Source: Marchantia polymorpha subsp. ruderalis
Lineage: Eukaryota > Streptophyta > Marchantiopsida > Marchantiales > Marchantiaceae
Direction: 5' to 3'
Length of the DNA: 64,000 nt
Assembly: GCA_037833965.1 (NCBI GenBank)
Contig: AP031356.1
Span: 5,416,501-5,480,500 of the forward strand
In this document: positions 14,050-48,400 of the stretch, one piece after another
Layout: every line of letters begins with the position of its first letter
How positions within the stretch are numbered: position 1 is the stretch's first letter
The notes under the pieces: model-generated
What the model was told of the DNA's origin: nothing
The model's database searches: none
What the model saw: only the letters and a program-made list of their open reading frames with translations
Program-made: the position numbers and the translations under genes

Positions 14050-14835
14050 ATGGGCGAGAGGGACGGCCTGAGGCAGAGCTTTTTAGATCCAGAAGAAGGG
14101 CAGAGGCCGGACGGGCCGGATGACGATTCGAGCGGATTGAGTGAACAATTTGCCCGAGTGGCAGATGCGTGGCGGAAGCAGAGACAGTCCGAATGGCTGC
14201 AGTTCGGGACGAGCACGACGGAGCTGGAAGAGAGCAGGGCGCCGTGGAGAAAAGAGCTGGGCGAAGCTCTGGAAGCCACGCCGGCGCACGTGGTCATCGT
14301 GGTTCTGCTGCTGGTGGATCTGCTGGCGACGGTGGTGGACATACTGAAAACGGTTCACAATAAGACTCACGATCTGAGCACCTGTACTGCTTACTTGCAG
14401 GAATGCCAATGCGTGCAGGACTTCGAGAAATCGGAGTCCTGGGAATTTCTGTACTGGATCTCCATCAGTATTTTGAGCATTCTGGCGCTGAATATTGTGG
14501 GCCTGTTGGTGGCCTTCGGCACCGCCTTCTTCCGCCACCCTGGATATGTCCTGGATCTCGTGGTGGTCGGTACTGCTCTTGTGTTGGAGATCTTCCTGGA
14601 TTCCGACACCGTGGGTTTGTTGATAGTGTTGACTCTGTGGCGCATCGTCCGAGTAGCCCATGGCATATTTGAGGTGACTGACGAAGCTTGGGAGAAGCAG
14701 ATCGATACGTTCAAGGAGCAACTCAAGGCTGCAGACTCCAAACACTACGCAGATCAAGAGCTCCTTCGACAAAAGGATCAACAGATTGCCGAGCTGAGTG
14801 GACAGCGCAATGGGCAGGAGAATCAGTACTACTGA
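14050..14835 (+). CDS. HV1: Voltage-gated proton channel (Hv1/HVCN1 family)
   Basis: Intronless frame of 261 residues; family members are usually 200-300. It is a voltage-sensor domain without a separate pore, expected to conduct H+ across the plasma or an internal membrane. S1 (about 80-99) has the selectivity aspartate D90 in LLLVDLLA. S2 is about 131-156, S3 about 165-183 (D169, E180) and S4 about 187-205. A charged heptad-like tail (about 206-253, ending in QKDQQIAELSGQ) fits the dimerising coiled coil. Compared with human Hv1, the S4 triplet RxxRxxR reads T195-LW-R198-IV-R201, so the first arginine is Thr. The S2 glutamate (E153 in human) aligns with N148, the S3 D185 with E180, and N214 with H204. 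The S1-S2 loop holds three Cys (112, 119, 121). The start ATG follows a purine-rich leader. Topology and the D90 motif make the family call strong; altered gating is inference. Confidence 0.87.
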   Translation: MGERDGLRQSFLDPEEGQRPDGPDDDSSGLSEQFARVADAWRKQRQSEWLQFGTSTTELEESRAPWRKELGEALEATPAHVVIVVLLLVDLLATVVDILKTVHNKTHDLSTCTAYLQECQCVQDFEKSESWEFLYWISISILSILALNIVGLLVAFGTAFFRHPGYVLDLVVVGTALVLEIFLDSDTVGLLIVLTLWRIVRVAHGIFEVTDEAWEKQIDTFKEQLKAADSKHYADQELLRQKDQQIAELSGQRNGQENQYY

Positions 14836-15970: not shown

Positions 15971-18829
15971 TCATTTAGCCTTGTAGTCTACCTCTAACCT
16001 GTGGACGTTCCAACCCTCTAGGACAAGAACAGGTGTGATGTGTTTTGGAACCTTGAAGGAGATCTGCACCGTGAGGGATTCTTCCGGCACCAAGGAAAAG
16101 TAATTGACAGAGTATGTGACGGGAAGAAGCCGTTGATCGGCCTTGTGCTTGTCGTAAGTCCCTTGCAGCACAGAGAAGTGGAGCCAGAAGGCAACTCCTC
16201 TTCCAGAAGTATCGTCAACTCCCTGGCTCAGTGAACCTTTCGGTGATGTCTCGCTGGGAGGTATGTTCTGCACTAGAGCAGTGATTTGCAGCAGGTCCCC
16301 CTTTTGTTGCGAAGAAGCAGCGACCTGAACCGGAACCTTTTTCACTCGAAAGTCAGCGCCAAGTAGAGAGTAGTCTCCTCCTTGAGGGTGAAGCCAATAG
16401 AAATTTCTGGACACCTGGAGACCTGACTCGTCGAAGAGTTTCAAAAGAACAAAGTAAGTTCCCTTCGTTTCTGTAATACTATTGAACCGAATCTGGGAAA
16501 GCTTCGTCGTCTTGAATGCATCCAACATCAACTGCTTCGATGTTTCCTTGTATATGCACTGGCCTTGCACGTCCCACATGCTGGCATCTAACCAGGCATT
16601 TGCAAGACGGTCGGATGTAGCGTTCGCAACCTCCACAAAACTCGACCCCAGATTGAGCTGTACATGTACCGGCTCAGCAGCTGACTTAACACCATAAAAT
16701 CCTCCCGTTTGATCCAGGAGAAAATCATAGAGCCCACCACGTAGGCCAGGCCAAGGGTTCTGATTCTTCCAGATCAGAACACCAGTATACTTCTCCCACA
16801 TCCGAGAATTCCAACCCTCGAAAAGCGCCTTGTACTGCACATAATTGGCAAGCTGAGCTTTCGCACAGAAATCGTCCAAACCGGTGTACTTACCATAGGT
16901 GCATATCTGACTCTTGACGTCATTCTCAGGATCACAATATGGAATATACTTGTGGTAGTCCCAGGTTTTGTTCGGCACATCCTTGATGTAACCTCCTTCC
17001 ACCTCCTGCATAGTCGGCGGATCCCATGCCGTGGGAGGCATGGTTGCTCGGATGGTTGCAGCGTTGGGGACTCCCACGGAGCCGATCTCAGGATTGAAGC
17101 CGAAAGAATAGTAATCGTCTGCGAAGAAGTCTTCCGGGTTCTGGATACCGTAAGGCCCATCAGACCAGTCTCCCTGTCCTTCTCCGAACCCACTCCAAAG
17201 AGAGCCTTGAACGTATGTGCGAGTGCCATCCAGGAATTGTGTGACATCCTCTTCCAGGACTCGGGACTCCCCAGAGTCGCTTCCAAAGCTGGAATTCAGC
17301 CGCAACTCATACTGCAAAGCTTGGTTAATGTCCGCAGCCGGGACCTGCTCGTTGCCACCGACCCACAGAGCGAGACTGGCATGATTCCTTAGCAGCTTGA
17401 CGGTATCCCTGGCACAGCGCAAGAACAAGTCATGATCTAGAGGCCAGCTCTGCTCCGAGGGTTCAACACCCCGCCCATTGCAGTCGCCGGTGATCCAAAA
17501 CTCTTGCCATACTAGAAGTCCGCGCTCATCACAGGCATCGTAAAATGCCGGCCTCTCGGCCAGAGCTCCGGCCCAAACTCGGATCATATTCATGTTCATG
17601 TCAGCATGAAAGCCCACATCGGTATCATATCTGTCTTTGGACAGCCGAAGCAGAGCATCAGACAGGATCCAATTCCCTCCCCGGATGAACACCGGCTGTC
17701 CATTCACGACAAACTTCCTCCCTCCTGTAGCGGGATCGATGTGTGTCTCGATCTGCCGGAATCCGATCCGATGGCTCCACACGTCAGACTCCTCGTATCC
17801 ATCCACGCTGACCGTGATCTCCACCTTGTACAGAGGCTGCTTGCCCATGCCATTCGGCCACCAGAGCTCAGGCTTGTTAAAAAACAGCGGCGGAAGAGTG
17901 TAGACGGTCGAGGAGCCGGCTTTGATCGAGAGCTGGGACGAAGCAAAGCCCTCCACAGAGCAGAAGCCGTCATCGCCATCGCCATCGGCATCTCCAGCTG
18001 CACCTGTCGCTTCGTCGTGCAGGTCCAGAGTGACATGGATGCTGATAGAGCACTGCAAATCGGCAGCAGAGGAGTTTACCAGCTCTGCCGATGATTCCAG
18101 ATAGCTCCTCGGGAATTGATCGTAGAATGTGGTCACCAGATGGGGGTCCCGGATGGACACAGGCCCCGTGAAAGCCACGGAGACCTCGTCCCAGAGCCCA
18201 GTGTTGCGGTCTCGGATCGGAGTCATCCAGTCCCAGCCCAGAACGTATTGGGCTGCAACATCCTTGGCAATGTCGTGGTTCCCTCCCTGCCCTCCCTCGG
18301 GAGGAACTGCGCCCGGATGATCGGGAGGATGCACAATCACAGCGAGCAAATTCTGCCCACCGGGAGCCTTGACGCAGGATGAAATGTCCACGCTGTGTCG
18401 CATGAACATTCCGCCGGGCAGGCGACTCTGCTGTCCATTCACGTACACTTCGGCCGAGTAGTTGATGGCCCGGAACTTGAGGTGCACCGACGAGAACTTG
18501 CCCGTGGGCGTCTGGAAGCTCGTGCAGAACCAGAATGTGTAGTGCTCGCGTCCTGCATCGGCGATGTCCGGAATGTTCTCATTCTCCATTCCATAGAATG
18601 GATCGGGGATCTGCTTGTTCTTCAGAAGCGTGGCCAGAACCGTCCCCGGCACTTCTGCTTGCATCCAGCCCTTGGTCGTCGAGCTGGGAAAGTGAGAAGT
18701 GCTCAGCTGCTCGCCTGTTGGCCCTACTTCTGAGGCCCGAGCAGCCACCCATCCCTCGACCAATTTGATTTCCATCCCCGTCAATCCCCCACAAAAGCTT
18801 GGCAATCGATTGCCGTGCCGACAGGCCAA
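15971..18829 (-). CDS. EBM: Mannosylglycoprotein endo-beta-mannosidase (GH2)
   Basis: Intronless frame of 952 residues with full GH2 architecture. It has a sugar-binding jelly roll (about 25-220; FRAINYSAEVYVNG, GWDWMTPIRDRNTGLW), an Ig-like domain (about 225-355), a TIM barrel (about 365-700) and C-terminal beta domains. The general acid/base is E494 in WVGGNEQVP and the nucleophile is E581 in GFNPEIGSVG, both in the usual context. GGNWILSD and MNMIRVW are further barrel landmarks. Plant members hydrolyse the Man-beta-1,4-GlcNAc bond of high-mannose-type free N-glycans during glycoprotein turnover. This reaction is inferred from family similarity. The first ATG gives 18 extra residues; Met19 (codon at 18775) is an equally good start, since plant homologues begin near EIKLVEGWVAARASEV. 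An insert at about 274-288 is Gly/Asp/Ala rich (DADGDGDDG). No clear signal peptide is visible. Fully intact, probably functional. Confidence 0.93.
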   Translation of the reverse strand: MACRHGNRLPSFCGGLTGMEIKLVEGWVAARASEVGPTGEQLSTSHFPSSTTKGWMQAEVPGTVLATLLKNKQIPDPFYGMENENIPDIADAGREHYTFWFCTSFQTPTGKFSSVHLKFRAINYSAEVYVNGQQSRLPGGMFMRHSVDISSCVKAPGGQNLLAVIVHPPDHPGAVPPEGGQGGNHDIAKDVAAQYVLGWDWMTPIRDRNTGLWDEVSVAFTGPVSIRDPHLVTTFYDQFPRSYLESSAELVNSSAADLQCSISIHVTLDLHDEATGAAGDADGDGDDGFCSVEGFASSQLSIKAGSSTVYTLPPLFFNKPELWWPNGMGKQPLYKVEITVSVDGYEESDVWSHRIGFRQIETHIDPATGGRKFVVNGQPVFIRGGNWILSDALLRLSKDRYDTDVGFHADMNMNMIRVWAGALAERPAFYDACDERGLLVWQEFWITGDCNGRGVEPSEQSWPLDHDLFLRCARDTVKLLRNHASLALWVGGNEQVPAADINQALQYELRLNSSFGSDSGESRVLEEDVTQFLDGTRTYVQGSLWSGFGEGQGDWSDGPYGIQNPEDFFADDYYSFGFNPEIGSVGVPNAATIRATMPPTAWDPPTMQEVEGGYIKDVPNKTWDYHKYIPYCDPENDVKSQICTYGKYTGLDDFCAKAQLANYVQYKALFEGWNSRMWEKYTGVLIWKNQNPWPGLRGGLYDFLLDQTGGFYGVKSAAEPVHVQLNLGSSFVEVANATSDRLANAWLDASMWDVQGQCIYKETSKQLMLDAFKTTKLSQIRFNSITETKGTYFVLLKLFDESGLQVSRNFYWLHPQGGDYSLLGADFRVKKVPVQVAASSQQKGDLLQITALVQNIPPSETSPKGSLSQGVDDTSGRGVAFWLHFSVLQGTYDKHKADQRLLPVTYSVNYFSLVPEESLTVQISFKVPKHITPVLVLEGWNVHRLEVDYKAK

Positions 18830-21361: not shown

Positions 21362-21722
21362 TCAGTAGAGTGCTGTAGGTGGAAAAGAGGCATCTTTCAG
21401 GAAGTTGCTATCTGTTATGGCCTCCTTGAACTCTTCAAAATTATTCTTCCCTGCCTCTGTAACGTCCGGTAGCAAGTGTTCGTCTGGTAATGCCCGTAAA
21501 ATTGAAGGAATGGCTTTAAAAGCAGGGAGCGTGTTCTTTCATCGACGTTGTAGAAGTAAAAGCCACGCCGGAAGCTGAATGTTGAACACAGGTTGCAGTA
21601 CATTTGCAGCTCCATCAAGGGAAGTGTTCAGAAAGGAAATCAAGGTCTGTAGGTTAACAAACCCGTAGCATGGACGCTAGTTCTCTCGTGAGATGAAGCC
21701 AGAGCGATCGGTATCATACAGC
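21362..21722 (-). pseudogene. CCaMK: CCaMK terminal exons with frameshifted and deleted EF-hands
   Basis: After an AG acceptor near 21722, LYDTDRSGFISRE gives the second EF-hand, and then a one-base loss shifts the frame. Further on, ILRALPDEHLLPDVTEAGK is followed directly by NNFEEFKEAITDSNFLKDA. About 15 residues of the last EF-hand loop are missing between them. The stop is at 21362-21364. Confidence 0.85.
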
Positions 21723-21932
21723 TACATAAGAAAAAGAAAACGATCAGAGAAGCAGTTTTTGGATGAAGCAGCAGCAGCAAATGTGGCCTGAGATACTCTT
21801 TCATCGATATCGTCTAACTAGTGGGCACAATTTGACAAATAATTCATTGAGCTTCTAGTTTAAGCAGCCGAGTTAAGACATCTCTGTCGTCTCAGTCCGA
21901 TGGTTGGGTTTCGTTCTTTAAGAAAGGCCTAC

Positions 21933-22199
21933 CTGAAAGCGGAGTCTCAGACCCTCATCTCCGTTGCCTTATTCAGAGAAGAAGCCGACGATAATCTCTC
22001 TCATGTCCACGCAACCATCTTTGTTGCCGTCAAAGAGGTCAAAAACGCGTTGTGCCATTGTCACCAAGCTCGCCAAGTTCATGGCCTTCAGCACATCCTC
22101 AAATCTTCTCCCTTGCTCCGTCTGTTGAACTGCATGAAAGAACTTCGATGAGATCCGATTGAGTTTCAAAACATCGAAATCCCACAAAGCAACTGCACT
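21933..22199 (-). pseudogene. CCaMK: CCaMK visinin-like exon with the first EF-hand
   Basis: The frame gives RRFEDVLKAMNLASLVTMAQ, then a canonical EF loop (DGNKDGCVDMREI inside VFDLFDGNKDGCVDMREIIV), matching the family sequence FEEVLKAMNMxSL. A TAA follows after GFFSE, then GNGDEGLRLRFQ continues in frame to a normal GT donor at 21931-21932. Confidence 0.87.
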
Positions 22200-22654
22200 T
22201 CTTTTCCATGGCATTAGACACACACTGACTTGTCAATGGGTAGCCCTCTGCAGACTTTGTAACCCTGTAATGCCTCGAAATGGACTGACGCGTGACGCAG
22301 TCTCTCAGAAGACGGACATTTTACAATTGAGCTTCCACTCAAACAGGAAGCTCAATAAGTCTGGTCGCACCCCCAAGAAACCTCCTACGCATCTCCTCTA
22401 GTCTCTCCCCATAGAGCTTTAGAGCTTCAAAGGAGAGAGGGGTTTCAGTCATAGAAGTAGACAGTGAGAGGAACACCTCTCGTGAACAAAACTCGATATG
22501 CGGAACTGAATTTTGAAGGAGGAGGCTTTGAGAACAAAAAAATTTCCGTCAAGTGCGCATAAGAAGTGTTTTTGTACTGAAGAGAAAGTGCTACAGGGAC
22601 TAAGATGTCTCTGAAATGTGTTTGAAGCTTTCCAAGATCTTCTTCGCTGATATT

Positions 22655-22785
22655 TTATTCGAGCCGACAAGCGTCTTCAGCTTTCTAGTCCGAAGGAGGA
22701 CCTTGCTACTGAAGATACTTGCAAATCCTGCAGCACGGAATTTGCGACGTGCATTTAGAGATTGTATACGCATGATGACATCTTG
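22655..22785 (-). pseudogene. CCaMK: CCaMK autoinhibitory/calmodulin-binding exon
   Basis: From the codon at 22771-22773 the frame reads MRIQSLNARRKFRAAGF, then ASIFSSK and RTRKLKTLVGS without a stop. This is the basic amphipathic CaM-binding helix that sets CCaMK apart from CDPKs (family pattern RLQSFNARRKLRAAA). The frame is intact here although the rest of the gene is dead. Confidence 0.87.
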
Positions 22786-23169
22786 CCCATAGGCTCCCTC
22801 TTTGCAGCATCAGCATAGAAGTAGAAGAAGTAAATGCAGATCCCTTACTTATGTTACAAATTACCGTCTGATCGATCGTAACAAAACCAAGGCTCGGACT
22901 GGAAATTGAATACGAACTGACTAGCGATTGATCTGGCTAGAATTATATGGTGATCTTGATTATAGGGTTCACAATTCCCGTAGTACATCATCTACTACCT
23001 CAAAAAAATTCAGACATGACTGAAATGATAAACTCCATCTCACCATCTCAAGCCAGAATCGCAAGAAAATGCCACAATCATCGTGGCAAACCGTACGCTT
23101 TCACAACAGACTCGGATTCACATAGGGCTTCCAGCTCTTCAAAGACAGCACAACACACAGTAAACATGC

Positions 23170-23300
23170 GAACTGTCATTGTCCTGAAAGCCTCGAGACA
23201 CAAGGAAGAGCTACCTCTGCCGCGGAAGGTCCGTAGCGAGGATTCACTGCCAATCAACTTCCGATGAGTTGCTTTGCAGATGACGTGACTTCGTTCCAAA
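23170..23300 (-). pseudogene. CCaMK: CCaMK C-lobe exon with internal TGA
   Basis: Minus frame starting near 23298 reads WNEVTSSAKQLIGS, a TGA at 23254-23256, then LAVNPRYGPSAAEVALPCV. This matches the kinase segment SAKQLI..LLTVDP..RPSAxExLxHPWV, with HPW changed to LPC. Confidence 0.8.
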
Positions 23301-23719
23301 GTTCCCAAGGTCAACCTTCAACTTTTCCATGCGAAGAATTTCTATAGGTTAGAAAGCAACAAGATCCTGGCAGTCTCCTATCCATTAAACAACTGCAGTT
23401 ATTCTCTCCCGCAACTGAACAGAGAAGCTTGGCTTACCGAGAGGATCAGGTTCTGCTTTTCTCTGTTTGTTCTTGCATGGAAAAGGGAATTACTGCACTT
23501 CAGCGCAGGTATCCTCGACCCCATCGTCTCGTGGATCCTACAGCACTGCTAATAGCATGCTTCCTACGTCCCTGCAGACAGAAATGTTGGAAGGTTGCCA
23601 TGTCCAGTCAAACAGCAGCGGCCCCTGCTCGGGCACAAAAATTTGCAGATATCGGAATTGAATTGTTTGTGCTGGAGGTATTTGTATGACGGCCCCAAAT
23701 GTCCACAAGCAGCGGCAAG

Positions 23720-24340
23720 CTATAGGAGCTTGGAAACAACTTGCCCTCGGAGGAGAATGTACAAGATGACCCCCAGTGACCACATATCGCTAGCTGATAG
23801 CACGGCTTCCGGCAGAAGGGCTTCTGGAGCAACGTAGTAGATGGATCGAAATATCCCAACGACTGGACTCGTGACTCCGTCTATGCGGCTGAGTCCAAAG
23901 CCCATGATGTTCAAAGGTGAAGCCTGAGCAGGAGCAAGAAACAGGTTTCATTTCACTGTGGAAATTTCATTTGAGCTTGGTGCAGACTGGCGAGGCCACT
24001 AGCAATTTGACGAATGACTTCAGCAGCTCCTGCTTTGGAGTATCCTTTCTGAGACGAATCGTCGACAAATCGTTTCGTAACAATGATCTCTCGTTGGCAA
24101 GGAGAGCACCCGAGAAGGGCACCTCTGTTGTGCTGGCGGTCGTTTCTTGTTTCCATTTTACTCCAACACCTCCTCCACCACAAGCAAACTGTTGGTGGAG
24201 GCATTTGGCCCGAAGCCCATTCCCATGCCATGTTTCTTCGAAAATTTTGTGGCCACAATCGCCCCATCTACTAGTTCATGCCTTGGCGCACCATTAAGAA
24301 TCCACCGCTGCCCAGTATCTTGCCCATTACATCTCATCAT
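23720..24340 (-). pseudogene. CCaMK: CCaMK kinase-domain exon, broken
   Basis: From 24328 the glycine loop GKILGSGGF is readable, then two stops follow. A second frame gives IVATKFSKKHGMG (VAIK lysine region), and a third gives VPFSGALLANERSLL (the helix-C/TNEI region). The first frame resumes at GYSKAGAAEVIRQIASGLASLHQAQM. The HRD loop is destroyed. NIMGFGLSRIDGVTSPVVGIF, YVAPEAL and SDMWSLGVILYILL follow in one frame. The exon ends at LLRG with GG|GCAAGT, a GC donor in place of the usual GT. Confidence 0.85.
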
Positions 24341-25160
24341 CTACTCTTCCTATCTGCCCCACATGATAACATCTACTACTCCCGAGTTGGCCGGATGGTT
24401 AGAATCTTCCAGCATCTACACCTCTTGCCTTCATTTTCAATCCGTGTGATCCTGGCACCAATTCCTGAGCCCCAAAACATTTTCTCGTTTTGTAAGAGAT
24501 TGCCTCTGCCACCACACACGGGAATCAGCCTGGCGAAGATATCGTCGATTCCACACGCCTCATCAAATTACTCGCTCACTCAAGTAGTTTGGTGTGCTTC
24601 CGCTGCCTACCACCTGCCACCTGCCACGACCATCAAGCGTCGAAACCATCTGTGTTTCAAAACACAGATGGTTCTAATTCTCGGCCCGGGAAATTCAGGA
24701 GCTTTCATCATCGATCGGCATTTCATTCCGACCAGAGTTGCAGAACCGAAAGGAGTGGGAGCAAACCCAGCACTTCCTTGCTGAGCTGTCAATGAGGCTA
24801 GATGAGGTGGCGGGTTACGTGTGCATCGATCTGAGAAATCCTTCAACTTGCGCATTTGTTATAAAGTCCCCGCCACAGCTCGTACTAGTTCGTTGCCAGA
24901 ACAAATCGCTGGCAAACACGCTCTGCTCTTAGAGCCATCACTCCTGGTCTCTAGACCAGATGAACAAACTTGTGCACTTGTGGCTCGGTTTTTTGTCTCC
25001 CCTCTCGTTCTTGTTGGCCGAGATTGGGTCACACATTGCGACCTTGGTGGCTCTGGCTATTGTACTTGGCTCCTCCCCCTTCTCTATTTCAAGGAACAAT
25101 TTCGTATGGGTTTTTAATACTGTTAGTATAAAATGTGATCTCTATGTTTACTTTTGATTA
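24341..25160. other. Upstream flank of the CCaMK pseudogene, no gene
   Basis: Normal-composition sequence upstream of the dead kinase. It contains the 13-bp hairpin at 24644-24673. Short frames, including a hydrophobic one near 24960-25157, have no recognisable identity. Confidence 0.4.
24644..24673. repeat. Perfect 13-bp hairpin with TCAA loop
   Basis: AACCATCTGTGTT at 24644-24656 and AACACAGATGGTT at 24661-24673 are exact reverse complements. Confidence 0.9.
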
Positions 25161-25372: not shown

Positions 25373-25416
25373 TGTACATGTTCCCCGGACATTTACATTT
25401 CCGGGGAACATGTACA
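25373..25416. repeat. Perfect 16-bp inverted repeat with 12-nt loop
   Basis: TGTACATGTTCCCCGG at 25373-25388 is the exact reverse complement of 25401-25416. The GC-rich core contrasts with the AT-rich surroundings. Confidence 0.92.
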
Positions 25417-27796
25417 TGTCAAAGTTTTAAAATGTGCATTGACCAGCAGTGAAATCTATTTTTAGATTTATGTAGATTGATAAGAATTATGTTACATCGA
25501 TATTGACAATGAATATGATTTGGATAAAAGTTGTAGAACAAGATATATGTTTACATTTTGTGGTGGATGCATAAACTAAAAATCTATTTTGCATAATTGC
25601 ATAGTTCATTCATAACAAAAATTGAATTGTGAAGAAAAAAGAAAAACTATTTGATTGAATATATTTATCATTGACATTAGATTGAAATAATAGGTTGTAC
25701 GTATTTACCGTGATAGTATAAATGTATCACATCTTGTTACAAAATCAAGTGATGGGTAACAAAATGAAACTTATTAACATCTGATCAACTCATTTAACCA
25801 AAGATGTAATTTTTGATGAAAAAAAATTGAGCTAATCAAATTTAACTGGAAGTTGAATTTTATTGGTCAAAACTATATTCTGAAAAACTTAAGTAGACAT
25901 TATGATACTATACAATTTTTGGATAAATAACAAAAGTAAAATTTACTAAAAATTTTATATTTTTTTCTCTATCATATTTTGGCTAGGGTTTGATTCTAGT
26001 TAGCTTTGGTTTGAAGGTTTCTATACATTAAAAATGGAGTGTACTATACCTGCAATACAACTTAAAAAAAACTGTTATTAATAATCTAAATAGGAAAATG
26101 ATTTGAATAATTCATGTTTTAGGTTTACATTTCCTGATTACATAGGAGGAGTACAAGATGTATCTTGCTCCAAACATTATTTTTAGGTTTTTGAGCAAAG
26201 CTAATGTAAAGCTAACATAGCCCAGCAGAGGTGAATGAAGTATGGTTTGTGTCGATTGCCTAATCTTTGCTTTAGGTTTGCATGCTTTCTGATAATTGGT
26301 TGTTATACTTTAAACTTTGCATAATTGGAAAAAATGTAAGTCTTAAATTTGAAAATAAATAAATATTATCTATTTATTAATCATTATTAGTTCAATTTTT
26401 TATTTGATTAGGCTTAACATGTTCATTATCTTTTATCCTTACAGCATAGTACATTATCTTTGTTCTTTCAACAATGAAAATCATGTAGTTTGAGTTGTAA
26501 ATAAATGTTTGCACATGGCATGTAACTCTAGTGTATGATTGTAATGAATATATGTTTTTTGTGATATTTTGGTTATGCAGTTGATATTTTATCACACAAT
26601 GATATTGAGAATGTATACTTTTCTAATATTTTTTGACAAGGACCAATAATCTCATGAAGATAAAGTAATTTGCCATCACTTTGTTTATCTTCATCGAAAA
26701 AAAATTAAAGCTCGAAATACTTCATAAACTTTAATACTACTGATATGTTTATTACAAATTACAGAGAGGAGATGCAAATGAGGATGGTACACATGATCGT
26801 GACAAGCTCTTGTGACTTGGCTAGCTTAACTATACAACTCACTCTCATGTATAAAGACAATGAGCTTGTTCTTTTCTTGCTAAAGAAAAGTTGCAGCAAA
26901 GTTGCTAGTAGATCATTTATTTTCATAGGTTAGACAAAAGATAGATTAGAACTTTACTTTAATTGATAACTACATCAACTTTTTGGCCAAACTTGCAGAT
27001 TTCTGCTTGTGGTTTTTCTTATTATCATCTTTCATATTTTTTACGAAATTTATAATCAAAAAAGTATCTGATTTATGTCTTTTATGTAACTTTGAAAATA
27101 TATATATGTTAATTGAAGTGAACAATTATTGTTGGATTTATCAGTCATTAAGATCTAATGTTTCGTACTCTTCTCTTCAATCTTACTATCCAAAGGATGT
27201 CTACAACGATTTTTCTCTCAATGCAAGATTGTTAACAAATGGTAGGCTTTCGAACAATAAGCTGAACGACCCACTAAGTTAAAAAGTATCGCCTTGCAAG
27301 ATCACGAAAGATATCAAAGATAAAGGTAGGAGGTGGAATGCTAAAAGAGTCTAGAGTAAGACCCCTCCACCTTGTACTGCAGATGCAAAGTGGATATGAT
27401 AATGTTTTTAAATGGCTGTGAGTATCCAATTCATCTGTTTCTACATACGTGTTTGATACCAATTCTCCGATTTAGTAATTGTAGATACCTGAAATTTTTT
27501 TAACGATCTTCAGATAAGACATACTTGTGGGATACTATGGCAACCATCAGTATTTGCGGAAGTAGTAAAAGATGCAAATTATACCCATCAAAAGATCCAA
27601 ATTCTATTGTTTCTGATAAAAGGCCGAAATGTCACCTGATAAAATCTTCATTTGTATAAGGTGGATGGGAGGAATATCTGGAGGGATGGATATGCGTATT
27701 TTGTGATGTTGGGACAATGCAATTGTCAGCTTTAATTTCATGCGACAGTTGCATGGGACATGTCAGAACGGCTTTGGATGCACATAGCGAGATTCA

Positions 27797-27936
27797 AGAC
27801 TTCTCAGTTGATGTATACGAAGAACATTCAACAATGTGCGCGTGGCCGCTTGCTTATAGATATTTCAGACTTCTCAGCTGATGCATACAAAGAACATTCA
27901 ACAATGTGCGCGTGGCCGCTTGCTTATAGATATTTC
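27797..27936. repeat. 70-bp tandem duplication
   Basis: Units 27797-27866 and 27867-27936 differ at only a few positions (transitions). Both contain the GC-rich patch GTGCGCGTGGCCGC. Confidence 0.92.
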
Positions 27937-28062: not shown

Positions 28063-28283
28063 TAGCGGTCGGCCCGGCTCGGCTGGAGCCGTTAGTACAT
28101 GGAGCCGGCTCAGCTCGGAGCCGATCGCCATGACAGAAGCCGGCTCGACCAAGTCGTAGCCGAGCCGGTCTGAAGCCGGCTCAACCCGGCTCGACTACGT
28201 CGGCTGAGTCGAGTCGACTGAGCCGGCCCGGCTTCGGCGGAGCCGGCTCGAAGCCGGCTCCGCCGAAGTCGGGCCGACCCCTA
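28063..28283. mobile_element. hAT-type MITE, GC-rich, with 8-bp target duplication
   Basis: A 221-bp GC-rich block lies inside AT-rich DNA. Its ends are inverted repeats: TAGCGGTCGGCCCGGCT on the left, and TAGGGGTCGGCCCGACT on the right read in reverse complement (two mismatches in 17). The flanks are ATTACACA (28055-28062) and CTTACACA (28284-28291), a 7/8 match. An 8-bp target duplication with TAG-starting ends is typical of hAT elements. The inside is full of AGCCGGCT palindromes and a 22-bp stem (28227-28248 with 28252-28273). It has no coding capacity. Confidence 0.75.
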
Positions 28284-28721: not shown

Positions 28722-29750
28722 TCATTGTTGTTGCTGCTGTTCCAGATTGATCTCGGAACCATCTTCGAAATATGAACCTTCCTGCAACCACTCAGGTTGA
28801 GTCTCGGCCCATGACCTCGGAGCAACTCCATAATTGGAATGAATGAACGCTTCTAGGCTCGGGAAAATCCGATTCTTGTCGAGAAAAGGGTTCCACAAGC
28901 CACTGACAATGCAATAATTGATGTCATACGGAGATCGGTGGTGAGCGCCGTGCATTTTCCTCGACACGAGAATTCCTCTATCCTGTAAAGCTATAACTAA
29001 TGGGGGCAGCTGACTTTTCTTCATGTGAGACCAAGCGTGGAATTGCTGGCTCATGACCACAAATCCGAGAAACAATCCCAAAAATGTGTCCAAAGCCGGA
29101 TTGCTGGGGAGAGCCAAGAAGGGAGCGAGAAAGAGTGCGACGGGCCGTGCAATGGCATGAATGTTGTTGGCGAACTGCCTTTTGGTGATAGTCCAAGGGC
29201 GCTTGTGGTGGCCTTGAAATGCGTCGATCTGAGAGCCGAAGACGGGAGTCTTGGCGTCCCCGTAGTTGTCGACGCCCCAGTGGTACACTCCCGTTCCCAG
29301 GTCCGAGAGCGAATAAGCTGCCAGAGCTGAGACGCAAATTACAGCTGCGTCCTCGGGGCTGTGAGACGCCGTCACCGCTTTCGCGAGCAGTCCCATCACG
29401 GACGCCGCTCCTGCCCCGACCCACAACCTGTGCTCCATGGTGGACTCGAGGCTCGTGTCGCTGAGACCCATCTTGGAGCCCGACAGAGCCCCAGCCTTCT
29501 TCTCCACCACTACCTGCTTCGTGGCCGTCTCTCCCTGCACCTGCTTCGACGGAGGCTCGGCCAGCACCGCGCCAATCGAGCTCTGCCCATTCTTCCTCGA
29601 CAGACCGCGGCAACGTCTTGAATTTGACGTCTTGAATTTGAAAATGGGCTGCCCGCGCTGAGAGGTACTCCGAAGCGGGTTGAAGCTCGGCGTCACCGCT
29701 ACCGCTCTGCCGGCACGAAGCCCGCAGGTCGCCACATCGAGACACGCCAT
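28722..29750 (-). CDS. FAD4: Plastid fatty acid desaturase FAD4 (TMEM189/Kua-like domain)
   Basis: Intronless frame of 342 residues. Residues 1 to about 65 are Ser/Arg/Thr-rich with few acids, as expected of a chloroplast transit peptide. A hydrophobic segment at about 109-150 leads into the desaturase domain. The His/Asp metal ligand blocks of this family are visible: D150-x6-H157, QGHHKRPW (H181, H182), H198, QFHAWSH (H238, H242) and HGAHHRSP (H267, H270, H271). Family members at the thylakoid introduce the delta-3-trans double bond into palmitate at sn-2 of phosphatidylglycerol. The animal and bacterial relatives (PEDS1/TMEM189, CarF) make plasmalogens. Order, spacing and the transit peptide favour the plant FAD4 branch. 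The C-terminus ends in a short Gln run (EQQQQQ), perhaps from a CAG/CAA microsatellite. The gene looks intact. Confidence 0.92.
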   Translation of the reverse strand: MACLDVATCGLRAGRAVAVTPSFNPLRSTSQRGQPIFKFKTSNSRRCRGLSRKNGQSSIGAVLAEPPSKQVQGETATKQVVVEKKAGALSGSKMGLSDTSLESTMEHRLWVGAGAASVMGLLAKAVTASHSPEDAAVICVSALAAYSLSDLGTGVYHWGVDNYGDAKTPVFGSQIDAFQGHHKRPWTITKRQFANNIHAIARPVALFLAPFLALPSNPALDTFLGLFLGFVVMSQQFHAWSHMKKSQLPPLVIALQDRGILVSRKMHGAHHRSPYDINYCIVSGLWNPFLDKNRIFPSLEAFIHSNYGVAPRSWAETQPEWLQEGSYFEDGSEINLEQQQQQ

Positions 29751-34918: not shown

Positions 34919-36808
34919 TTAAGATGCAACGTCGTCGTTGCACATACGTTCAAACTTTTGAACTATCAAAAGTGCATTTGCTAAATTTTTAGCTGGTTCC
35001 CAAGTTGATTTATATAATGGATAACCTTTCCATTGAATCAAATACTTTATTTTGGGATACTTATGACCTCGAATACGTTTCTAGAGTATCTTTTCTACCT
35101 CAAACTCCTCATGATCTACTATGAAGGTTGGAAGAGGAGGTGGTGCTGGTTGGTTGGTGAAATGTTTGGGTCGTGGTACATGTTTTTGCAATCGTAACAC
35201 ATGAAATACTGGATGTATTTTCATATGTGACGGAATTTCCAACTTGTATGACACTTCACCAACACGTTTCAAAACCAAAAATGGACTAATGAACCTAGGG
35301 TTCAATTTTGGTGGTCCTACAAGAGACAAATTTGTTGTAGATAACCAAACATGATCTCCGACCTCAAAAATCAATTCTCTACGATGAGCATCGGCATGTT
35401 GTTTTTGCCGATTTTGAGCTATTGCCAACTTCTCCTTGGCTTGATGTACTCCTCGGTGAATATGCTCCACAAATTCGTTGACTGCTGTAACTTTGATCGA
35501 AAACTCATCTCCTTTCGGAAGTCTCATCAAACTTGAAGGAGTTTTATAAGATTAACTCCATACATAAAAAATGGAGACACTTTTGTAGATGCATTAACAG
35601 AATTGTTATATGCAAATTCCACAAGTGGCAAAAGGTTGTCCCATTCTTCTTGCTCTAATGTGAATGCTCGTAACATATCCTCTATGGTTATTTGCCCTCT
35701 CTGTTTGTCCATCAGTTTGAGGATGATAGGCGATTGACATTGGCTATAATAGAGGCTATAATAAACCCGCTGGTTTTTGATTACTTGCCTTGTTTTGTTG
35801 ACAAGCAACACAACTTTGAACGTAAGACTCCACATCCTCACGTATTTTGGGCCAATAGTACACTCGTATACTCTCCACGGTTTTCTCCACTCCCACATGA
35901 CCTGCAATGGCTGTGTCATGACTTTTGACCAAAATCATTGTGCGCAAATCTTGACTTGAGGAATTCATTTACGCTGTTTGTAGAACGCCAAACCTTGAGA
36001 TTTCTCTGCCTTTCCATTTTGTAGTGCTCGAGTGATCTCTTCATACTCCTTTGTGGCTTGTGTCATCTTGCTCCATCAATCAGCCTGAATTTTCACTTCT
36101 TCAACATGATTCAAACAAGACATGCGTGTGAGAGCATATGCAAGTTGCTTCTTCCCCTCCACGGACACAATCTTCATGTTGAAGCGTTGACGCCACTCAG
36201 CCCATCGAATTTGTCATTTGGACAGATCCTTCTGAGTTTCCAAATAAACCAAGGGTTTATGATCGGTCTCCACCACAAACTCCTTATCACCCAAGTAATG
36301 CTTCCAATGTTTGATTGCCAACACAATGGCTAACTCCTCACGTTCAATCGTGTGATAATTTTGTTCTGCCGCCATCAACTTTTGAGAATAGAAAGCAACT
36401 CGATGCCATCCATCCTCCCATTCTTGTTGAAGTATGCCACCTGCTGTTGTACATGATGCGTCAGTAGCCAACTTGATAGGGCGGTTAGATCATACCACTT
36501 GAGGATTTTTGCATGTAATAAAGCATCTTTCAATGCTTGAAAAGCTAACTCTTCAGCTGTTATACATCTCCATTTTTGACCTTTCCCTAACATGGAAGTC
36601 AAGGCTTGAGCTAGACGAGCAAAACCTTTCACAAATCTACGATAGAATCGAATGAGCCATAGAAAACTCTTCAATTGAGTTTGATTCTTAGGTGCTGTCC
36701 ATTTCTGAATAACATCTATCTTCTCACTCATCACTTGGATTTCTCCAGCTGTAACTCTATGACCTAAGTAATCTACTTCTGACTTGCCAAATTCACACTT
36801 TGAAGCTT
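34919..36808 (-). pseudogene. Family B chromovirus pol, partial
   Basis: In minus-strand order there is the RT C-terminus (SKCEFGKSEVDYLGHRV), then RNase H with TDASCTTAGG, EREELAIVLAI and TDHKPLVYL. Next come the integrase zinc domain (H...H...CVAC) and a deletion that removes most of the catalytic core. The integrase C-terminus (GDHVWLSTTNLSL, HPVFHVLRLQKHV) and a chromodomain ending WKGYP...STWEPAKNL follow. Frames are broken, with a TAG at 35081-35083. At 36808 the RT is cut by the end of a family A LTR, flanked by AGCTT. The reading continues, after a gap, in the fragment at 41281-41370. Confidence 0.87.
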
Positions 36809-45489: not shown

Positions 45490-48400
45490 AGACCTCTTAC
45501 CGAAGACACAAAAGTCATCGATGAAAATTTCCAGGAACTTCCTTAGGTGCTCTTGGAAGATGTTTGTCATCATCCGCTGGAACGTCGCTGGCGCGTTGCA
45601 CAGCCCGAACGGCATCTTGTGATAAGCATAGGTTCCCCAGTCGGTTGTGAAGGTTGTTTTGTCCTTGTCCTGTTCCCTAATGGACACCTGGTTGTAGCCG
45701 GAGAATCCGTCTAGGAAACTGTAGCATTCATGCCCTGCGACATGGTCCAAAATAGAGTCCGTGAAAGGGAGAGGGTGATGGTCCTTCCTCGTTGCTGCGT
45801 TCAGCTTTCGGAAGTCCTGGCACACCCGGATCTTACCCGTCAGTTTCTTGGGTACGATTACGATAGGCGACACCCACTCGCTACTGAGTACCGGGTAGAT
45901 GATTCCTGCGCTCAGGTACTTATCGATTTCGTCCTTCACCAATAATGAATATTTTGGGTTGAGCCTGTATTGGCGTTGGCGAATCGGAACTGCCTCGTCC
46001 AACAAGTCGATCCTGTGCTCCCCATACCTTGCAGGTATGCCTTTCATGTCTTCAATCTTCCATGCGAAGACATCCTCATACTGGCGAAGAAATGCCTGTA
46101 CCCTGTTCAACTCTTCTCCTTGTACCTGGCTTGACACCTTCAAGCCTTTACCTGGACTGAGTTGCAGTTCGCAGCAATCACTTGGGTCGACAATCCCCTC
46201 TGTGTGACTGATCTCGCTTCTGCCCAGTCCGACTGCTAGTTGCTATTCGTCATCCGGATGCACATCGTGTCCTTCCTCCTCGATGGAGCAGCAAGTGACG
46301 TAACCTACAAACTCATCCAACGTTTCTGTCTCTGAAGTGCATGACGAGCTGGTCTCCCCTGCAGTTGTGTACCCGGAGGTGGTGGAAGGTGTTTCGCCCT
46401 CGTGTGGTACCTTGGTCCATGGTACGGTAATGACAGTCGGAGGGTCCGCAGGGTTTCGGAACTGTAATCTCTTCCTCCTCCAGTCACACCTTGCTTTGGC
46501 ATCGTATAGCCACGGTCTGCCAAGCAGCACATCATAACCTTTCTTCATTAGAGGTTGCAATATTATGTAGGACAGTTGAAAGTCCACTCCTCCAATGTTG
46601 GTTCTCACATTGCTCAACATTCCTAGCGGCATTCTGCGCGTTTGATCGGCCAGTCGCAACACTCGGGATGTAGGCTCGAAGGTCTGGAACCCCAAGGAGT
46701 TCGCTGTCTCCTCGGTCATGATGTTCACGCCCGAGCCGGAGTCCACTGGTACTTTCTGTATGACGCAGCCTCCGATCTCTACTTCGATCTCTGGAGGTCC
46801 TAGGTCTCCTCCTTCCACTCTGTACACAGCCGGAAGTTTCTCTTTTCGGGGTTTGCGTGGTCGGCGCAACGAAAGCATCAGCATCCTTCTGTACGTCTTA
46901 TTGTCCTCCAACAGCTGGTGGAAGGAAATATTTGCCCTCTGACTCCCTATGTCCTCCACTATGTCGTAGGAAGTGTTGGAAGTCACAGCCGGAAGTTTCC
47001 CTGTACTCGCGGTCGGAAGTGGTGTAGGGGGCCTAGCCGCCTTCCGGTCGTCGTATGTCGTTCCGGCGCCCAGTGCTTCCTTGATGAGGTGACTCACCTC
47101 ATCTTTGATGTCCGGAAGGTAGTCTCGGGTCCGGAACTCTTCCGAAGACCTGTCCGCCTTCTCTGAGTTCTGCTCCGGCTGGGTGTTCCTCATCGCCGGA
47201 GGTGTACCCGGCCTTCTCCTTTGGCCTTCTCTAACTTCTTTAGACTTCCTCCTCTCTTCCCTACGCTCGAGGCGGCGAGTGTCCTCGTGGTCCTCTCCCC
47301 TCCTCTTTGAACTTCGGGTCTCTACCCGTCCGCACATTACTTCTTCCTCCGGCCATACTTCGTCTCCTTCAGCTGGGTCCGGGCTCAGTTCTACCTGGTT
47401 GACCTGCACCTCTTCCTTGCCAGGTGTCGATACGAAACGCACGGCTGGCCTAGGGACTGGTGGCTGATCACATTCGGCTGCTGTATGTCCAGACTTCTTG
47501 CAATTGCTGCACAACGGTGCATACCCCATTTGCTTCCTCGGGTGGGGACAGCTTGGCGCGTAATGTCCCATGTCTCCGCAGTTGTAGCAACCATTGAATT
47601 GTGGTGGAGGTCGGCTGTAATTGCCTGGAGGTGCCATGCGTCTTGGTGGGAGCGTACCCGCCATTTCCCTCGGAACAAAGCGCGGTATATGCACCGGTGG
47701 GTTCGGAGTTGTAGATGGAGCTGTCTGTACCGCGTAGGCGGTGTCCTCAACCGGCTCAGCATAATACATGGGCGGCTCAGCATAATACATGGGATTCTCC
47801 CACTGTGGTGCCCATTCGACCGCATTCACTGGGTAAGATGGGCGCGCGGACATGCACTCCGTGTTGGCATGTCCCACCTGTCCGCACGTAGTACACCAGA
47901 GATTCGCTCGCTGTCTCGCAGGTGATTTACGTCGGTCTTGGCCTCCCACTACATGAACTTTCAGGTCCGCAAAATTCTTCACCAGGTTGTCTACCTTGGC
48001 TGCGATGTCCCCTTGACTCTTCACTGGGATTCCCTTACCTCGATCCTTCTTCTTGATCGTACTGCGTTTCTTCTTCCGTCTTTCTTCTTCTGAAGATGAC
48101 GAGTCCTCTTCCTCTTCCGAGGAAGAACTTGATTCGGAGGAGCTTGATTCTTCTGTCGAGGAAGGCGAGTTCCTTCTCTTCCGACGTCCGCCTTGCGATT
48201 TCTTCTTCGTCGACCGTCGGTCGCGTCTTCGAGTGTCAAGGGTTGACGTCTCAAAGGTCTCCGCGGAAGCTATCACATCTTGGATTGTTTCAGTCTTGCC
48301 TCTCCTATAGAAGGTCTCCATTTCTCTTGAGAGCCCTGTCACATACCAATCCACTGCTTGTTGTACCGAAAATGGTTCTCCTGGGCCTGTCTTCGGAATT

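Follow-up and report, generated by a model that had tools for sequence, protein, structure and literature searches.

CCaMK is a calcium-reading kinase that plants require to host mycorrhizal fungi. In symbiotic plants, it reads calcium spiking in the nucleus and starts the mycorrhizal programme by phosphorylating CYCLOPS.

Among liverworts, CCaMK is shown to be essential for arbuscular mycorrhiza in Marchantia paleacea in an excerpt of PMC11725925, while an excerpt of PMC11287157 refers to CCaMK/DMI3 pseudogenization in M. polymorpha as "previously reported", citing Radhakrishnan et al. 2020. A 2022 review (PMC9516144) states that four symbiosis genes out of six survive as pseudogenes, without naming CCaMK at that point. 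CCaMK pseudogenization in M. polymorpha is therefore already in print, and the finding described below is not new. Here we set out what remains of the gene within a stretch of DNA of 64,000 nucleotides, which was analysed as a whole and is referred to as the window.

Segment order and identity of the locus

In a tblastn comparison with Medicago truncatula DMI3 (a reference sequence not drawn from a database record), CCaMK/DMI3 segments were found to be collinear on the minus strand from 24327 to 21362, in the order of DMI3 residues 14-29, 139-167, 178-244 (61% identity, 67 aa), 272-300, and 319-377, followed by the EF1 exon (inside a match to 319-447), the EF2 loop (inside a match to 420-459), and residues 461-515. 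Some matches are weak when taken alone, among them 14-29 (E 1.2), 272-300 (E 0.046), and 248-262 (E 11). The best eight-segment chain, which includes 248-262 and excludes the EF1-exon match, reaches 296.9 bits. Among 100 shuffled versions of DMI3 the highest score is 102.9 bits and the average 72.1, and the reversed DMI3 protein scores 78.1. The sequence-only reading, which had placed ordered CCaMK sections on the minus strand at 21362-24340, is confirmed by these collinear matches and by the chain, and its span proved right to about 15 bases, since the first DMI3 match starts at 24327 and 21362 is the last base of the terminal stop codon. The recognisable features are as follows, with the evidence for each in brackets.

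21362-24327, minus strand: CCaMK/DMI3 pseudogene, recognisable extent (tblastn, spliced frameshift-aware alignment, terminal stop codon)
24280-24327, minus strand: N-lobe start, with the glycine loop ILGSGGF at 24318-24298 and frameshifts near 24329 and 24273 (weak match alone, E 1.2)
24055-24272, minus strand: heavily decayed N-lobe, frameshift near 24089 (spliced alignment, approximate positions)
23968-24054, minus strand: alpha-E segment, YSKAGAAEVIRQIASGLASLHQAQM (tblastn)
23950-23970, minus strand: destroyed HRD site, in-frame TGA 23955, frameshift at about 23949 (alignment and translation)
23744-23944, minus strand: activation segment to alpha-F, GFG at 23902-23888, YVAPEAL and DMWSLGVILYILLRG kept (tblastn; Pfam Pkinase, E 5.3e-9)
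23438-23482, minus strand: remnant after the SG codon, FHARTNREKQNLIL (alignment and chain; E 11 alone)
23212-23298, minus strand: C-lobe end, WNEVTSSAKQLIGS, then the in-frame TGA 23256, then LAVNPRYGPSAAEV (tblastn and alignment)
22660-22782, minus strand: autoinhibitory/calmodulin-binding region, RIQSLNARRKFRAAGFASIFSSKVLLRTRKLKTLVGS, free of stops and shifts, with a frameshift after it near 22659 (67.6% over 37 aa)
21933-22121, minus strand: EF-hand 1 exon, RFEDVLKAMNLASL...DGNKDGCVDMREI, in-frame TAA 21971, AG before and a CAG/GTAGGC donor after (tblastn and alignment)
21663-21721, minus strand: EF-hand 2 exon, LYDTDRSGFISRE, with its acceptor AG and with a frameshift near 21683 leading to TAG 21679 (tblastn, alignment, by-eye translation)
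21362-21511, minus strand: remnant of the EF-hand 3 exon, LRALPDEHLLPDVTEAGK...NNFEEFKEAITDSNFLKDA, its calcium-binding region short of 15 residues near 21447, acceptor uncertain (tblastn and alignment)

The spliced, frameshift-aware alignment to the DMI3 reference yields 213 identical residues among 443 aligned, and three segments are uninterrupted: the activation segment (64.4% identity to DMI3 over 59 aa), the calmodulin-binding region (67.6% over 37 aa), and the EF1 exon (67.4% over 43 aa). The Ser/Thr kinase domain of CCaMK is represented by the activation-segment piece, which matches Pfam Pkinase above cut-off (E 5.3e-9). A CCaMK-type autoinhibitory/calmodulin-binding segment lies between the kinase and the EF-hands, as judged by its 37-aa match to the DMI3 reference; this piece matched no Pfam family and no PDB chain. 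Within it, the calmodulin-binding helix NARRKFRAAG, singled out by the sequence-only reading, is found at 22755-22726. The open frame running on after LVGS to 22605 turned out not to be the CCaMK-like frame, the alignment changing frame near 22659. The EF-hand exon previously recognised by LKAMNLASL is likewise present, with its RFEDVLKAMN at 22106-22077. As for the visinin-like EF-hands, the EF1 loop (22034-21996) and the EF2 loop (21718-21683) are still readable, and the EF3 loop is lost with its flanks remaining. On the EF1 piece, Pfam yields EF-hand matches that fall short of the cut-off, and the EF pieces match EF-hand proteins in PDB (best 60 of 154 rows). No CCaMK chain is among the matches listed in the PDB sequence searches.

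No Pfam family passes its cut-off on the three plus-strand ORFs that overlie the pseudogene (23917-24297, 24278-24784, and 22947-23267), which gave one weak DUF7102 match (E 0.047) and were taken as chance.

Lesions and surroundings

Stops in the aligned frame are TGA 23955, TGA 23256, TAA 21971, and TAG 21679, the last one after a shift. Five frameshifts were placed by alignment, near 24329, 24273, 24089, 23949, and 22659, and a sixth, near 21683, was read by eye from a translation in all three frames, in which the EF2 exon changes frame; their number and positions are approximate because the reference, Medicago DMI3, is distant. Additionally, about 4 residues are missing from the destroyed HRD motif at 23970-23950, DFG has become GFG at 23902-23888, about 36 N-lobe residues (DMI3 approximately 104-139) have no counterpart in the spliced alignment, and the third EF loop has lost 15 residues near 21447. 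A stop at 23313 and the N-terminal end of the alignment (24500-24344) were set aside as poorly aligned stretches. The lesions claimed in the earlier reading (HRD loop destroyed, DFG to GFG, in-frame stops, frameshifts, and an EF loop lost) are thus confirmed by alignment and translation; its further claim that the order of damage and the date of the loss could be read here is unsupported, because a single copy can show neither. With the HRD motif destroyed, GFG in place of DFG, and stops and frameshifts in place of an open frame, the features of a functional kinase are absent. As judged from its sequence, the gene is dead, a pseudogene of the family and not a working member, and the remnant would be unable to make an active kinase.

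In the spliced alignment, unrelated sequence lies between the CCaMK segments. The intron between EF1 and EF2 keeps its splice signals, the junction FQ/LYDTD being flanked by CAG/GTAGGC and TATGTAG/CTG; the other intron ends are less sure, since the placing method demands GT or GC and AG. GC content is 0.463 for the locus (introns included), 0.461 for the window, and 0.54 and 0.561 for the two flanking frames, which are the following.

15971-18829, minus strand: downstream neighbour, a GH2 (endo-beta-mannosidase-like) frame open over 952 aa (Pfam)
28722-29750, minus strand: upstream neighbour, a FAD4-like Lipid_desat frame open over 342 aa (Pfam, 6.9e-68)

Of the HV1, EBM, and FAD4 neighbours named earlier, the GH2 and FAD4-like genes are thus recognised by Pfam; the third, a plus-strand ORF (14050-14835), is Hv1 voltage-sensor-like by eye only, its Pfam Ion_trans match lying below cut-off (E 2.9e-4). 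Several repeats and mobile-element remains occur in the same window. A 20-nt inverted repeat that is nearly perfect (95% complementarity, with a spacer of 4 nt) lies at 25373-25416, some 1 kb upstream from the pseudogene, two 70-nt repeats stand in tandem at 27789-27928 (91% identical), and a cluster of short GC-rich repeats, both direct and inverted, with GCCGGCTC units occupies 28063-28283, directly downstream of the FAD4-like gene. Retrotransposon remains are found at 35081-35530 (a Tf2-1-like SH3, and an integrase C-terminal match that is below cut-off) and at 46243-48354 (a 703-aa gag-like ORF with a zinc knuckle, and with aspartyl-protease matches that are below cut-off).

Explanations for the broken gene

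We consider it close to certain that the locus is a unitary pseudogene of a single CCaMK/DMI3 gene at what would be its ancestral position, most likely in Marchantia polymorpha, given that an intron is kept and that no intact copy was found with queries drawn from the pseudogene's own pieces. M. polymorpha is the likely source because two published oligonucleotides of that species, a guide RNA spanning an exon-intron junction of MpPGDH (PMC10808223) and a gene-specific primer for MpSPI (PMC9537460), have a single exact match each in the genome. The forward primer of the male-specific rbm27 pair gave no match, as would be expected of a female assembly. The main interpretation of the sequence-only reading, a broken CCaMK gene, is supported in that the remnant is CCaMK-like relative to the own-genome kinases compared, is broken, and has no second copy by the same own-piece queries.

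It is highly unlikely that the remnant is still partly functional, its calmodulin-binding and EF1-EF2 segments being expressed as a small calcium sensor. Such a role would suit a calmodulin-binding region free of stops and shifts that retains 67.6% identity to DMI3, readable EF1 and EF2 loops, and an EF1-EF2 intron with both GT and AG; however, the frameshift near 22659, TAA 21971 inside the EF1 exon, and the frameshift near 21683 fragment precisely this part, and the similarity of the kept segments is explained by recent loss, with no need for selection. We give just as little credence to the idea that the calmodulin-binding exon and the EF1-EF2 exons might be transcribed and selectively kept, after the death of the kinase, as a short calcium-sensor peptide or a regulatory RNA.

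There is similarly very little to recommend a late CCaMK duplicate that decayed here while an intact gene survived elsewhere in the genome. In the 241-Mb, nine-contig assembly, all three matches from the C-terminal-piece search fall inside the locus (5/5 candidates scored), as do two of the three from the kinase-piece search of the whole genome, the third being another kinase with a weak match (E 8.2e-4; 31/31 candidates scored). An intact CCaMK elsewhere, which the earlier reading had named as an outcome that would count against it, was not found in the 241-Mb assembly with queries taken solely from the pseudogene's own pieces; that choice of queries leaves some room for a second copy, but an intact paralogue would be expected to match them well. 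The locus itself is absent from the 133 matches of a Pkinase family search of the genome (123/777 candidates scored), which fits a decayed kinase and also exposes the limits of that search.

Less probable still, with hardly any chance of being correct, is the view that the gene that decayed here was a CDPK, a CRK, or some other kinase in place of CCaMK. The kinase core is common to CaMK-like kinases, and the kinase piece matches STK17A, MAPKAPK2, CaMK1D, DAPK1, and calcium-dependent protein kinase 3 in PDB (best 60 of 94 rows). Nevertheless, it is nearer to DMI3 than to the own-genome kinases compared: over the activation segment, the best of these (L001-L008 plus L014, which is the same kinase as L001; the best 8 of 133 Pkinase matches, which may or may not include a CDPK or CRK) reaches 46% over 63 aa, against 64.4% for DMI3. 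The calmodulin-binding and EF1 pieces, both about 67% identical to DMI3, find only the locus itself in their own genome, apart from a single 11-aa chance match of the calmodulin-binding segment (E 3.1); the EF1 segment has no match beyond the locus in this own-genome comparison. A CDPK/CRK identity is therefore rejected as improbable, since the genome-wide piece searches favour CCaMK, as do the segment identities relative to the kinases compared; a best match to a CDPK or CRK, the other outcome that the earlier reading had set against itself, did not emerge from these comparisons.

The intron kept at FQ/LYDTD with its GT...AG signals argues against a retrocopy, which is rejected. Chance similarity is rejected because the 296.9-bit collinear chain stands far above the 100 shuffles, none of which exceeded 102.9.

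A unitary CCaMK pseudogene would be accounted for if the lineage ceased hosting arbuscular mycorrhizal fungi and selection on CCaMK lapsed, after which point mutations, small indels, and deletions would have built up; the position between the GH2 and FAD4-like neighbours would then be the ancestral one. The decay of CCaMK fits a liverwort that abandoned the mycorrhizal partnership. A Medicago IPD3/CYCLOPS query gave no match in the whole genome in a search run with no positive control, a result that is consistent with CYCLOPS having been lost but goes no further.

Comparison with described CCaMK genes

The closest described counterpart is the M. polymorpha CCaMK/DMI3 pseudogene of Radhakrishnan et al. 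2020 (Nature Plants), which, as represented in the excerpt of PMC11287157, agrees with the present one in gene, lineage, and state; the locus described here is very probably the one reported there. It shows, at the level of single bases, the decay of a core symbiosis gene after the loss of arbuscular mycorrhiza, and its lesion map could serve for comparison among subspecies and for dating the loss. Medicago truncatula DMI3 has the same domain order of kinase, calmodulin-binding region, and EF-hands, with 64-68% identity in the three kept segments; unlike DMI3, the copy in the window is without the HRD motif, the Asp of DFG, the EF3 loop, and a portion of the N-lobe, and it carries stops and frameshifts. 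The expected orthologue is the CCaMK of Marchantia paleacea (Marpal_utg000137g0173321, in the excerpt of PMC11725925), a gene that is intact and functional in that species and broken at the locus described here.
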